Assembly (NCBI RefSeq): GCF_900111995.1
Contig: NZ_FOKF01000005.1
Location: forward strand, 124,001 to 188,000
DNA length: 64,000 nucleotides
Direction of reading: 5' to 3'
Origin: Collimonas sp. OK607
Lineage (GTDB): Bacteria > Pseudomonadota > Gammaproteobacteria > Burkholderiales > Burkholderiaceae_D
The position numbers were made by a program, and so were the translations under genes. The notes beneath the pieces were generated by a model, which did not search any database, had not been told where the DNA came from, and was given only the letters and a program-made list of their open reading frames with translations. Shown piece by piece: positions 33,696 to 38,294 of this stretch; position 1 is the first letter of the stretch, and each line of letters opens with the position of its first letter.

Positions 33696-34433
33696 TCAGC
33701 TATCGGGTTTGATGATACCCATCATGACCGCTCTGCTAATGGCATGGCGGGTGCTGTAGACACCCAGTTTCATCGCCACATTCTTCATGTGGAAATACAC
33801 CGTACGTTGGGATATGCCCAGGATCAGCCCGATTTCGGAGCTGGTCTTGCCGTCGGCGCTCCAGCGCAGGCATTCGAGTTCGCGCACTGAAAGCACCGGG
33901 CCCTGATCCGGCGCTGTCTTACGCCACAAGAATTCAGCCGCTTCCTGCAAATAAACGCCGAGCAGAAGAGCATCGGCCTGGATACTGGTCGACGGTGCCT
34001 CCGGGCGCGCCGTATTGCTATAGAAATCGAGGCGGCTTATCGCATGTTTGCTGTGAATTGCCAGGCTCATGCCCTGCGTCACACCCATGGTTTTCAACAA
34101 AGGGTAGATCTGGCCGCCATGCAGCAAGCACAATTGTTCGACCTGCCAGTTCAGCGGCAGGGAGGAGCGCGCAAGATGCTGCCGGACCGGATCCGTCGCG
34201 TCTTCGGCCGGCAGGCTGAACTGCTGCAGCACGGCATCGGGCAAACTGCCGAACAGCTGCATCTGTGAAGCGCCGCTGACACTAGCGATCTCCGTCTGCA
34301 ACATGAAATCGCAAATCCCGAGTTGTGCCAGCTGACGTTGCACGCATACGCGCAACTGGTCCCAATCGGATGCCTGAACAATTTGCAGCAGGCCGGGAGT
34401 GGATATTCTAGGAGCGGCTTCGCTTCGCAACAT
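33696..34433 (-). CDS. LuxR-type autoinducer-binding regulator (solo)
   Basis: A 245-residue LuxR protein. The C-terminal HTH (about 178-240) is typical (LSVRELECLRWSADGKTSSEIGLILGIS and TVYFHMKNVAMKLGV). The N-terminal half has the autoinducer-domain pattern including DPVRQHLARSSLPLNW, yet at the two ligand-pocket positions usually Trp and Tyr in acyl-homoserine-lactone receptors (W57 and Y61 in TraR numbering) it has Val and Phe (LPDAVLQQF). There is no luxI gene in the window. It is the last gene of the kinase-response regulator operon facing the autoinducer synthase gene, so a non-AHL signal, possibly linked to that synthase, is a fair inference. Confidence 0.82.
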   Translation of the reverse strand: MLRSEAAPRISTPGLLQIVQASDWDQLRVCVQRQLAQLGICDFMLQTEIASVSGASQMQLFGSLPDAVLQQFSLPAEDATDPVRQHLARSSLPLNWQVEQLCLLHGGQIYPLLKTMGVTQGMSLAIHSKHAISRLDFYSNTARPEAPSTSIQADALLLGVYLQEAAEFLWRKTAPDQGPVLSVRELECLRWSADGKTSSEIGLILGISQRTVYFHMKNVAMKLGVYSTRHAISRAVMMGIIKPDS

Positions 34434-34448
34434 GGATTTTTTCGAGCT

Positions 34449-35462
34449 TTATGATTTTATATCGGCAGATTGGTCGCGTAAAAAATCTGCCAATGAATAA
34501 AAAGGTTCACGTGAATAATGTTTAGGAAAATCGAACAGGGCCCAATAGTACTCTTGGACGCCGAAACAAATCTGGGCCGGCAGACAGTATGATAGCCAAT
34601 CATGGCGTATGGCGTCGGTATACATACCGTCGCTGTCGGAAAAGAACGGCACCAGGCGCATTTCGCGCAAACCAGTCAGCAATTCCAGCGGCGCTGCGTA
34701 ATCCTGCGCTACTTCCAGCTGCGACATCAGGCTGGCTTCGGTTTCCACTACCATCAGCGTGGCCTTGCCCCGCATATCGAAGAACAGGATGCCGGTCGGG
34801 TTAGGGAACAGGTAGTACTCGACAAAGCCATGCCGTTTGCATAACTGCTCGACCAGCGCCGCCATCGCCGGATCCGACAGGAAGGTATATGAATGGCGCG
34901 ACAGCAGATCTTTCAAGGTCAGTGACCGGGAGTGGAAGAATTCTTTCTGGAGGCTATGAATCTCCAACTCCAGATGATCCAGCGCGTCGTGGTCGCTCTT
35001 TTTAATGAACCGATCGATCAGCCCGCGATTGAAGGCATCGATGGCGATCTTTTCGTCGGCCTGGCCGGTAAACAGGATTTTCTTGCACGGCAGGTCGCGC
35101 ACCGCCTCGCAAAATGCCAGGCCGTTCATTTGCGGCATCGCGTAGTCGATTACCAGCACCGACGGTAACAAGAAACGCCGGCGGTTCATGGACTGCCGGT
35201 AAATCTGATCGATATCGACTGCCACCGTGCGCCGGTCGAACGAAAATGACTGTTCATCATAGTTGACCCGGATCGACTGGCTCTTGCTGGGCGAATGCCG
35301 ATAGGCGTCGCGCAACCACTCGAGGGCGAGCTGCGTATCGTGAAACACTTTGCGCACCATGTTCGGCGGCAGCTGGAAAGCTAGGCTGTCCAAGAAACTC
35401 TGGCTATCGTCGATCAGGATAGTCAGGGTCGGATGTTGATAAACAGGTAATGAAATATTCAT
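34449..35462 (-). CDS. response regulator with atypical output domain
   Basis: A 337-residue two-component regulator. The N-terminal receiver has the acidic pair at Asp18-Asp19 (LIDDS), a phospho-acceptor Asp106 (VLVIDYAMPQMNG), a Thr in ILFTGQAD and Lys in FIKKSD. The distance from acidic pair to acceptor is about twice the usual, due to an insertion near residues 55-100. Residues 190-337 form a domain without a recognised helix-turn-helix. The ATG at 35462 (MNISLPVYQ) is chosen; further upstream the frame only overlaps the kinase gene. It follows the kinase gene by 65 bases and precedes the LuxR gene by 15. It resembles the regulators paired with alpha-hydroxyketone sensor kinases (LqsR, JqsR). 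Output is unknown. Confidence 0.8.
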   Translation of the reverse strand: MNISLPVYQHPTLTILIDDSQSFLDSLAFQLPPNMVRKVFHDTQLALEWLRDAYRHSPSKSQSIRVNYDEQSFSFDRRTVAVDIDQIYRQSMNRRRFLLPSVLVIDYAMPQMNGLAFCEAVRDLPCKKILFTGQADEKIAIDAFNRGLIDRFIKKSDHDALDHLELEIHSLQKEFFHSRSLTLKDLLSRHSYTFLSDPAMAALVEQLCKRHGFVEYYLFPNPTGILFFDMRGKATLMVVETEASLMSQLEVAQDYAAPLELLTGLREMRLVPFFSDSDGMYTDAIRHDWLSYCLPAQICFGVQEYYWALFDFPKHYSREPFYSLADFLRDQSADIKS

Positions 35463-35527
35463 ATTGAGGCGCTGCAGGCGCAAGGAGCGGTGTAAAGCGC
35501 TCAGTATAGAAAGACACGGAAAGAGTG

Positions 35528-36847
35528 TTAATTTAACAGAGAGCGCATGTCTGCTGCTTTTTGTTGCACTATAGGCGGAAAATCCAGCACAAAAATAGAG
35601 TAGCCAAGCGGCCGTGACACCACACGGATATGGGCGCCCCAAGCTTCCAATACGTCTTTGCAAAAAGCCAGTCCGATGCCGGTACCGCTGGATTCCGGGT
35701 AAGCGTAAAAGCGCTCGAAAATCTGTGATGCGCGGCCTGCCTCGATACCGCAGCCAGTATCGATGAACAACAACCGGGGCCGGGCCCGGGCGCCGTCCAG
35801 TATGATCCGTACCCGGCCTTTGCCGACGCGTTGGATCGAGGTTAGCGCGTTGCGCAGCAAATTGATCAGAACCATCGAGCACAACTCGCCTTGCCCCAGC
35901 AAACGAAAATCGGAGCGGACCGTGATGGCGACGAGATCGCGTTGTTCCTGGTTGACGAACGGGTAGCGTTGCATCATCAGCTCTACTACCGCCGCCATCG
36001 ACACGATGTCTTTCGGTATCAGGTTCTCCCTGCCGGTAGAGGCGCTCAACAGGAAAAGGTCGATCACATTATTCATGTGCCGCACTTCAAGTTCGATCCG
36101 CGCCAGCGCCTTTTCCATCGGGATCTGGTTTGGAGATGTGCGGTCTGTACTTTCTTGCAACAGACGATTCAAGCCACGCGCATTGGCGTTGATGCTACGC
36201 AAGGGCGTACGCAGTTCATGCGACACGGTCGACAACGCGGTCGCCATGCCTGCCAATTTTTCCTGCGCCAGGACTTTTCTGCCGACCTTGGCCAGCGATA
36301 CGGTAAAGACCGCAAAAAGTTGGATCGGCAATTGCTCCAGCACTTGATAGGTTAACGGCATGATCTTGCCGTGGACCGCATCATAAGCCAGATAGGCCAG
36401 CGCGGTTCCTATGACATAGGCTAGCAAAGCCAGGGTAGTGTCGAAGTGAAACAGGAGGATCAGGGCGATCAGCAATGACTGGGCCCAGACCGACGAGCCG
36501 TCATTCATGAGGAACATGAAGGTGAAAAAAAACGGCAGTCCGTAAGTCAGGCAAACAAAAAAATAAGCTGCCAGCCACTTTCTGTGGGGCAGGTGGCGAG
36601 TAAAAATAATCGGTGCGCAGAGGACAACGCAAAACAGGCGCAAACTAAGGCTTTCATACGGCTGCGGAAACCAGTAGGTCCAGACCACGTAGAACAACGG
36701 CATGCCAAAGACCGCAACCCACGCGAGGAAAGCCACGCGATTGGTCATGTCGTTAAATTGGGTGTTGATACTTTGCCACCAACGGTTAGCCGCACGCTCC
36801 CAAGCGCGCCAGGGCGGGTTTTTCCAGCTGCTGTTGTTTTCAGTCAT
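35528..36847 (-). CDS. membrane sensor histidine kinase (CqsS/LqsS/JqsK-like)
   Basis: A 439-residue kinase. Roughly six hydrophobic helices occupy residues 35-190, with short loops and no large periplasmic domain, an arrangement suited to a small hydrophobic signal. The dimerisation box has His210 in STVSHELRTPLRSIN, and the ATPase part shows LINLLRNAL (N box), FIDTGCGIE (G1) and GTGIGLAF (G2). The ATG at 36847 (MTENNSS) has no good ribosome site; three further codons lead to a TTG. It is the first gene of an operon with the response regulator and LuxR genes, divergent from the autoinducer synthase gene 161 bases away. The ligand is presumed to be that synthase's product. Confidence 0.83.
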   Translation of the reverse strand: MTENNSSWKNPPWRAWERAANRWWQSINTQFNDMTNRVAFLAWVAVFGMPLFYVVWTYWFPQPYESLSLRLFCVVLCAPIIFTRHLPHRKWLAAYFFVCLTYGLPFFFTFMFLMNDGSSVWAQSLLIALILLFHFDTTLALLAYVIGTALAYLAYDAVHGKIMPLTYQVLEQLPIQLFAVFTVSLAKVGRKVLAQEKLAGMATALSTVSHELRTPLRSINANARGLNRLLQESTDRTSPNQIPMEKALARIELEVRHMNNVIDLFLLSASTGRENLIPKDIVSMAAVVELMMQRYPFVNQEQRDLVAITVRSDFRLLGQGELCSMVLINLLRNALTSIQRVGKGRVRIILDGARARPRLLFIDTGCGIEAGRASQIFERFYAYPESSGTGIGLAFCKDVLEAWGAHIRVVSRPLGYSIFVLDFPPIVQQKAADMRSLLN

Positions 36848-37008
36848 GGGAATCAAATATTTGGCCTATCGGATTTTCATATAACAATATTATGAGGCGA
36901 AGATCAGCCGCAGATCTTCAACGCCGACTGCATAAACTGATTCCACGTTCCAGACAGGGACATGGCGGCTCTGTTTGGTATTTCATACTAAAGTACAGGG
37001 AGAAAACC

Positions 37009-38253
37009 ATGCCATTAACAGAAAGCTACCACGAACCACTAGTCTTGACAGCGGAGCAACGCTTGCCGGCTTTTGTATCTGCCCGGCTAGATGAGTATTA
37101 CATAGAGCGGATGGAAAAACTGTGGGGTGGCGAACATTTACTTCACTGGAGTTCGCCTGGGCCGAATGCGATTTATTTATCCAGCAACGATTATCTGTGC
37201 ATCGCTGCAGAACCGCAGTTGATCAACGCCCAGGCAGCGTGCCTCATGAGCGGCGAGGCAGACCTGCTGATGTCGACGGTATTCATACGGGAAGGCAGCA
37301 GTCAGCCGCGCCTGGAAAAAAAGCTGGCAGGTTTCATGGGCGCGGAAGACGGCTTGATCACGCAATCCGGCTGGAGTGCCAATGTCGGCCTGTTGCAAAC
37401 CATTGCCGGTCCAGGCGTGCCGGTTTATCTGGACATGCAGGCACACGCTTCTTTGTGGGAGGGTGTGCAAGCGGCGCAGGCCCGACCGGTGCCATTCTTG
37501 CATAACGAGGTTGAGCACCTGCGGCGGCAAGTACTCAAACACGGAGCCGGCGTCATCGTGGTCGACTCGGTCTACAGCGTGAGCGGCAGCGTATGCCCGC
37601 TGCTCGAAGTACTGGCCATCGCCGAAGACAGCGGCAGCATCCTGGTGGTGGACGAATCGCATTCGCTCGGCACGCATGGACCGGAAGGCGCCGGTCTGGT
37701 CATGCAGATGGGCTTGTCGGACCGCGTCCATTTTCGTACTGCATCGCTGGCCAAGGCGTTTGGCGGGCGCGCCGGATTCATTACCTGTTCGAGTAAATTC
37801 AAAGGGTATTTCTTGTCCACCTCTCGCCCCGCGATTTTCAGTTCCTGCATGCTGCGGCACGAACTTGCCTGGTTCGACGCTGCGCTGGCATTCATACGGA
37901 AGGCAGATGACCGGCGCCTTGCACTGCACCGCAATGCACGGCGCATTCGCGATGGCTTAGGGGCATTGGGCTACAACGTCAGCGACGGCACCGAGCAAAT
38001 CATTGCGTTGGAAGCCGGAACGGAGCCGAAGACGCAGATCTTGCGTAAAGCATTGGAGGAGGAGGGCATTTTCGGTGCGGTTTTTTGTGCTCCGGCGACC
38101 CCTAAAAACCGTTCATGTGTCAGGCTGACGCTCAACTCCGGCCTGACGGAGGTAGAAATCCAGCAGATCTTGCGGGGATGCGCTGCCATCCGCGACAAAG
38201 TAGGTCTGGCCGACTGGTCGTCAAGCCGTCGCCGGGCGGTAGCTTTCGGTTGA
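37009..38253 (+). CDS. cqsA: alpha-hydroxyketone autoinducer synthase (CqsA/LqsA/JqsA type)
   Basis: A 414-residue PLP-dependent alpha-oxoamine synthase-like enzyme. The PLP lysine is Lys249 in TASLAKAFGGRAGF, with the Asp215/His218 pair in VVDESHSLGTHG and His146 in DMQAHASLW. The first 100 residues have the pattern of CqsA-type enzymes (YLSSNDYLCIAAEPQLI). CqsA, LqsA and JqsA condense an acyl-CoA with an amino-acid-derived substrate and lead to alpha-hydroxyketone signals. GGGAGAAAA precedes the ATG. Its position opposite a kinase-response regulator operon matches the lqs, cqs and jqs systems. The related 8-amino-7-oxononanoate synthase (BioF) or KBL would be alternatives, but no biotin or threonine genes are here. 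Confidence 0.85.
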   Translation: MPLTESYHEPLVLTAEQRLPAFVSARLDEYYIERMEKLWGGEHLLHWSSPGPNAIYLSSNDYLCIAAEPQLINAQAACLMSGEADLLMSTVFIREGSSQPRLEKKLAGFMGAEDGLITQSGWSANVGLLQTIAGPGVPVYLDMQAHASLWEGVQAAQARPVPFLHNEVEHLRRQVLKHGAGVIVVDSVYSVSGSVCPLLEVLAIAEDSGSILVVDESHSLGTHGPEGAGLVMQMGLSDRVHFRTASLAKAFGGRAGFITCSSKFKGYFLSTSRPAIFSSCMLRHELAWFDAALAFIRKADDRRLALHRNARRIRDGLGALGYNVSDGTEQIIALEAGTEPKTQILRKALEEEGIFGAVFCAPATPKNRSCVRLTLNSGLTEVEIQQILRGCAAIRDKVGLADWSSSRRRAVAFG

Positions 38254-38263
38254 TTTTTGCGGT

Positions 38264-38294
38264 CTTTCCCGAAGGCCGTCTGTCTTCGGGAAAG
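38264..38294. terminator. bidirectional hairpin between synthase and HxlR genes
   Basis: CTTTCCCGAAG (38264-38274) and CTTCGGGAAAG (38284-38294) form a perfect 11-base stem with a 9-base loop. On the plus strand TTTC follows. Convergent genes on either side make it a shared terminator. Confidence 0.7.

Follow-up and report, generated by a model that had tools for sequence, protein, structure and literature searches.

Within a 64,000-nt stretch of Collimonas sp. OK607 (NZ_FOKF01000005.1; this whole stretch is called the window, and coordinates count within it) we found an alpha-hydroxyketone (AHK) quorum-sensing island in which a gene for a LuxR-type regulator follows that of the response regulator. 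The island is the Collimonas form of the known JQS (Janthinobacterium quorum-sensing) AHK system with this LuxR-type gene added; the trio of kinase, regulator and synthase is the JQS system already known, and what is new is the LuxR gene beside the regulator of the island. We propose, at a probability of about one half, that the LuxR protein may serve as the DNA-binding output of the AHK circuit, controlled by the regulator, by the AHK or by both, because no DNA-binding domain is recognised in the regulator, to which the LuxR gene is tightly linked. As read directly from the DNA, the kinase-regulator-LuxR operon runs from 36847 to 33696 on the minus strand and diverges from the AHK synthase gene on the plus strand (37009-38253), the start codons of kinase and synthase being separated by 161 nt. 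The operon holds a JqsS-type membrane histidine kinase (35528-36847, 439 aa), an LqsR/JqsR-type response regulator (34449-35462, 337 aa) and the LuxR-type regulator (33696-34433, 245 aa), whose start is only 15 nt downstream of the stop codon of the response regulator.

On NF005526, the model for AHK-type autoinducer synthases (cut-off 428), the synthase (CqsA/LqsA/JqsA type, 414 aa) reaches 559 bits, and on the BioF model 232 bits, which is under that model's cut-off of 426; in the curated profile search its scores on the glycine C-acetyltransferase and serine palmitoyltransferase models are far lower and also under their own cut-offs. Among solved structures the CAI-1 synthase CqsA is its best relative (E 3.6e-104), followed by a serine palmitoyltransferase (E 1.5e-43). 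An alternative start at 36892 was rejected, the ATG at 37009 being likelier. The kinase carries HisKA and HATPase_c domains (Pfam), with hydrophobic peaks confined to residues 34-159 of its N-terminal part and the H-box at residue 209. For the response regulator Pfam finds a receiver domain only, with Asp106 inside a conserved VIDYAMP stretch, and the C-terminal part has no Pfam DNA-binding domain. The sole strong solved relative of the regulator is 6sy9 ('Response regulator'; E 1.8e-48, residues 3-309), which we take to be LqsR of Legionella. There is structural work on LqsR later than 2012. The LuxR protein matches GerE with 60.2 bits (cut-off 23.5) and Autoind_bind with 30 bits (cut-off 23), and its genome has no match to Autoind_synth (PF00765, luxI). 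Its structure model has a mean pLDDT of 62 and a pTM of 0.45; all 50 Foldseek matches listed are LuxR-family chains with query-normalised TM-scores below 0.5, so that the model counts only as weak support for the fold. It may be noted that an earlier note on this DNA had named these same four parts and their divergent layout with the 161-nt spacing, which the domain matches and coordinates bear out. The membrane kinase adjoining the synthase agrees with the two kinase domains and the hydrophobic segments, the response regulator of the divergent operon is LqsR-type by its match to 6sy9, the synthase class follows from the NF005526 score and from CqsA as best solved relative, and the LuxR is indeed without a luxI partner genome-wide. 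The grouping of the synthase with BioF or KBL enzymes, which the note had named as a counter-argument, finds no support in the profile and pairwise comparisons (made without a joint tree with BioF and KBL), which favour an AHK synthase.

A family sample of 392 genomes was used to see how far the LuxR gene accompanies such islands. A synthase over the cut-off was present in 110 of them; all 110 neighbourhoods were examined by tblastn, and the 109 besides the window were re-checked with a LuxR profile. The LuxR gene adjoins the regulator in 14 of the 110 loci, namely 13 of Collimonas and one Collimonas-like island of another genus (G359). All 13 island-bearing Collimonas carry it; two further genomes of the genus (G102, 1.7 Mb; G217, 86% complete) lack the island, and in these a close LuxR is missing as well as a synthase over the cut-off. 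No regulator is in place at two loci (G037 and G087), and in two of the 94 remaining ones (G181 and G353) the stretch ends too near the regulator to exclude a LuxR gene; none of the 92 readable loci with a regulator has a LuxR of this type. The seven named loci with the LuxR are all Collimonas, six being 73-92% identical and the other a 67% paralogue in Collimonas sp. OK242. Of 399 genomes sampled from the order, 19 have a synthase and 16 of these are new; none of the 16 stretches (several being short contigs of 3.2-8.4 kb) has a whole-length match to this LuxR. A class sample of 360 genomes gave seven with a synthase, and no LuxR match was found in the six newly examined class stretches (5 genomes, two of the stretches short). 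The earlier note had asked whether the LuxR gene is conserved with the kinase and regulator in relatives. This holds inside Collimonas, where the gene is fixed with the island, but fails outside the genus, where it is absent from every readable family locus with synthase and regulator apart from G359. Since most relatives beyond Collimonas lack it, the LuxR gene is a lineage trait, added in this lineage and no part of the general system.

Other genes with a GerE domain were met beside AHK genes. In G350 a GerE protein next to the regulator, overlooked by tblastn and picked up by the profile search, was considered as an Autoind_bind LuxR and rejected, for its receiver and GerE domains make it a NarL-type response regulator (L066, 11767-12555), encoded on the same strand 93 nt past the stop codon of the LqsR-type regulator; it is perhaps another DNA-binding partner. 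Two stretches from one family of the order (L224, 11295-12152; L225, 10895-11815) have another kind of LuxR-type gene, which matches GerE and not Autoind_bind and diverges from the gene of the AHK kinase; a DNA-binding partner was perhaps recruited there independently. The class genome G818 has two AHK-synthase-like genes (L236 and L240), one of which is under the family cut-off.

On present evidence the LuxR goes with the response regulator more than with the synthase, since the pair occurs without a kinase or synthase nearby and since the LuxR-linked regulators share a clade. From the regulator stop codon to the LuxR start there are 12-24 nt in all 13 Collimonas. A third genus offers an example in G038, where the regulator and the LuxR, with identities of 66% and 51%, lie 5 nt apart (L175, 7162-8918). 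Neither a kinase nor a synthase was matched in the 15-kb stretch around the pair, and the genome has no synthase over the family cut-off; this pair adjoins a transposase-like gene (the label is our own reading of the sequence). The trees took 116 of 142 regulators, 78 of 124 synthases and 90 of 133 kinases, with short rows dropped and one genus thinned for the regulators and two groups thinned for the other two, and were made by a quick method with no bootstrap. On the regulator tree the 15 LuxR-linked regulators fall within one clade of 16 rows (SH-aLRT 97). LuxR-linked regulators outside Collimonas are 66-70% identical to that of the window, as against at most 61% for those without a LuxR. 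The kinase and synthase of G359 are also nearest to Collimonas, and the island of G359 was perhaps acquired by transfer from a source resembling Collimonas. In 24 stretches of other family genomes that have the regulator and no synthase (L191-L210 and L227-L230) no LuxR match was found, so the regulator-LuxR pair is a property of one regulator lineage. Nine of these (L195-L203, all of genus g40) have a kinase and an LqsR-type regulator with no synthase in the stretch, and these pairs are possible listeners to the AHK of others. The co-occurrence of unlinked LuxR relatives with the regulator was dropped as evidence because its carriers are mostly from genus g40, in which the regulator is frequent in any case. 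If the LuxR were a chance neighbour with no functional link, its absence from all 92 readable LuxR-less loci would be easily understood; yet the same place and order recur across the genus and two further genera with gaps of 5-24 nt (an alternative start in G359 gives a 7-nt overlap), and we consider chance very improbable.

The ligand pocket bears on what the LuxR could respond to. Receptors of acyl-homoserine lactone (AHL) are marked by W57, Y61, D70, P71, W85 and G113 in TraR numbering (PMC4414361, PMC10134790). Against this AHL motif WYDPWG, the LuxR of the window reads VFDPWG, with the equivalents of Trp57 and Tyr61 replaced. In an alignment of the 15 regulator-linked LuxRs the position of W57 is V, T, M, L or I and that of Y61 is F (L in G197), while D70, W85 and G113 are kept in all 15 and P71 in 14; E178, L182 and G188 of the DNA-binding domain are likewise kept in all 15. 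A luxI match is present in 9 of the 13 island-bearing Collimonas and in none of the other four, the source genome among them. Because the pocket tryptophan is replaced and luxI is unmatched in these four carriers, the LuxR is unlikely to be tuned to an AHL of the cell's own. The pocket looks kept for some ligand. With the equivalent of Trp57 gone, an ordinary AHL receptor is less likely, but the change does not by itself name another ligand. A second, unlinked LuxR of Collimonas sp. OK242 (L190, 3781-4548; 67% identical) keeps the Trp57 equivalent.

These pocket letters can be set against two other explanations. In the first, which takes up the phosphorelay plus direct ligand receptor suggested by the earlier note, the LuxR would be a direct intracellular receptor of the AHK, parallel to the kinase and with no contact to the regulator. 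The retention of the D70, W85 and G113 equivalents, and in all but one case of P71, together with the replaced Trp57 and the four carriers without luxI, speaks for this, as do PluR and PauR, LuxR proteins with a changed motif that bind other ligands (PMC4414361). Yet in G038 the LuxR adjoins a regulator in a genome with no synthase over the cut-off. Also, LuxR relatives whose 15-kb stretches are free of AHK genes (G212, G155 and G313) show much the same letters, although elsewhere in these genomes G212 has a synthase and G155 and G313 have a regulator without a synthase. As the letters occur in relatives away from AHK genes, the pocket does not point to an AHK in particular, and we regard direct reception alone as doubtful, though with a real chance of being right. 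In the other explanation the LuxR is an ordinary solo for foreign or host signals and is merely co-transcribed with the island. Relatives with 38-46% identity that lie away from AHK genes in other genera would suit it, as would the departure of VFDPWG from the AHL motif; but the LuxR has kept its place beside the regulator in the 13 Collimonas, G359 and G038, and we find this explanation distinctly unlikely.

Haack and co-workers describe TTGAN6/7TCAA, here called the JAI-1 motif, upstream of almost all AHK-regulated genes or operons of two strains and upstream of every jqsA analysed (PMC5080296). We looked for it in the gap between synthase and kinase with about 40 nt on each side. It is present at 93 of the 94 LuxR-less loci with a regulator (G243 is the miss, and G350 keeps it), and at none of the 14 LuxR-bearing promoters of the 13 Collimonas and G359; the 161-nt divergent promoter region of the window (36848-37008) is accordingly without it. 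Both other tested loci, G021 (under the synthase cut-off) and G087, also lack it. Shuffled gaps had the motif in a mean of 1.9 of the 94 cases, with a maximum of 9 over 200 rounds, and the contrast between LuxR-bearing and LuxR-less loci has a Fisher value of 1e-16, which ignores kinship. The same region of the window has an imperfect inverted repeat, CCAGACAG-N13-CTGTTTGG, at 36950-36978. This pattern with a spacer of N13 or N16, or close forms of it, precedes the synthase gene in all 13 island-bearing Collimonas and is absent from the two others. Genome-wide it is nearly confined to the synthase promoter in all 13 carriers, with one unrelated site in G143, and the reversed control pattern gave one match, in G164. 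The dyad was therefore rejected as a general LuxR operator. From its sequence it could be a LuxR operator of this promoter or a leader hairpin; the changes in its arms would all keep G-U pairing as RNA in our own reading, and are too few to decide.

The motif TTGAN6TCAA resembles the FNR box (TTGATNNNNATCAA) and occurs 130 times in the source genome against 27 times for the reversed pattern. Ten of these sites are in L241 and L242 of that genome, where two Crp/FNR-type regulators, a COX1-type oxidase and a HemN-type gene are among the neighbouring genes. Perhaps an FNR-type protein binds the JAI-1 motif.

Several of the results weigh against the LuxR being the output of the circuit. The correlation of the motif amounts to about one evolutionary event, because the LuxR-bearing loci are essentially one clade. 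The motif is also missing from 15 order-level outgroup loci whose region upstream of the synthase could be read, which may point to a gain elsewhere instead of a loss in Collimonas; its loss as an event is not claimed for this reason. As the conserved dyad is essentially found only at the synthase promoter, no LuxR regulon can be read from it. The sixteenth row of the regulator clade is an orphan regulator of G222 with no LuxR match beside it. The kinase tree places the LuxR-bearing loci on one side of a weakly supported branch (77), and the synthase tree does not unite them, two changes being needed. The LuxR also changes faster than the regulator, with identities among Collimonas of 71-92% against 87-99%, though it was rejected as the fastest-changing of the four proteins, as the kinase and synthase of G186 are less alike than the LuxR.

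If the LuxR is the output of the circuit as we propose, the steps could be as follows. By what is known of the related systems, the synthase would make the AHK, and the kinase would sense it and alter the phosphorylation of the regulator. The regulator might then pass its state by contact to the co-encoded LuxR, by analogy with PqsE and RhlR, and the LuxR would act at the island promoter and on further targets. The LuxR pocket would probably also take a non-AHL ligand, for which the first candidate is the AHK itself, which it may bind directly. The fullest form of this, with two receptors for one AHK, i.e. the membrane kinase and an AHK-binding intracellular LuxR under additional control through contact with the response regulator, seems to us rather unlikely. 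Were it true, it would give the first LuxR-family AHK receptor in the literature searched and a direct output for an LqsR-type regulator.

A terminator-like hairpin of 13 pairs lies 3′ of the synthase on the plus strand (38264-38294, sequence scan), but terminator-like sites in the region show no excess (5 observed against a shuffled mean of 5.1). A candidate internal promoter, TTAACA/TATACT, in the gap between kinase and regulator was dropped, being unconserved in most other Collimonas.

From the published work, AHKs act on kinases, the phosphorylation signalling converges on LqsR, and LqsR dimerises (PMC5289986). In 2012 its C-terminal part was described as resembling no known output domain and the route from LqsR/JqsR-type regulators to DNA as unknown (PMC3376566). 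The LuxR gene may be the missing link from the AHK signal to gene control; as it travels with the regulator, even where no kinase and synthase are nearby, it makes the question of how the regulator reaches DNA directly testable in a soil genus. If true, two kinds of quorum sensing that are usually taught separately would be joined. We found no description of a LuxR gene inside an AHK island in the parts available of the literature searched. Song et al. (2015) describe a CepIR-like pair in six Collimonas genomes, with no mention of hydroxyketone, cqsA, lqsA or jqsA in the text available (PMC4690342), and the available text of neither the LuxR-solo survey of 2015 (PMC4338825) nor the review of 2023 (PMC10134790) mentions Collimonas or hydroxyketone.

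In comparison with known systems, the island is nearest to JQS (jqsA-jqsS-jqsR) of Janthinobacterium and Duganella, which has three genes and the TTGAN6/7TCAA promoter motif (PMC3566124, PMC5080296). In both the synthase adjoins the kinase and response regulator, and the spacing of 161 in Collimonas is within the 42-172 bp in print for the jqsA-jqsS intergenic region, whereas the fourth gene and the missing motif set the Collimonas island apart. With Lqs of Legionella and Cqs of Vibrio it shares an AHK synthase and a membrane kinase, and with Legionella alone an LqsR-type regulator (PMC3376566, PMC5289986). The gene order in Legionella is however lqsA-lqsR-hdeD-lqsS (PMC3376566, PMC5289986), the cqs cluster of V. 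cholerae has no LqsR gene (PMC3566124), and no LuxR gene is described inside the Lqs and Cqs clusters in the parts available of these papers (PMC3376566, PMC5289986, PMC3566124). PluR and PauR are similar in being LuxR-type proteins with an altered six-residue pocket motif, which is TYDQCS or TYDQYI in them and V/T/M/L-F-DPWG in Collimonas (one carrier having L for F), but no kinase or LqsR-type regulator is mentioned beside them in the text available (PMC4414361). Lastly, RhlR with PqsE is a LuxR-type protein dependent on a protein partner, which for Collimonas is a proposal; PqsE is an enzyme and no response regulator (PMC8754118, PMC13043044), unlike the partner that the Collimonas LuxR would have.

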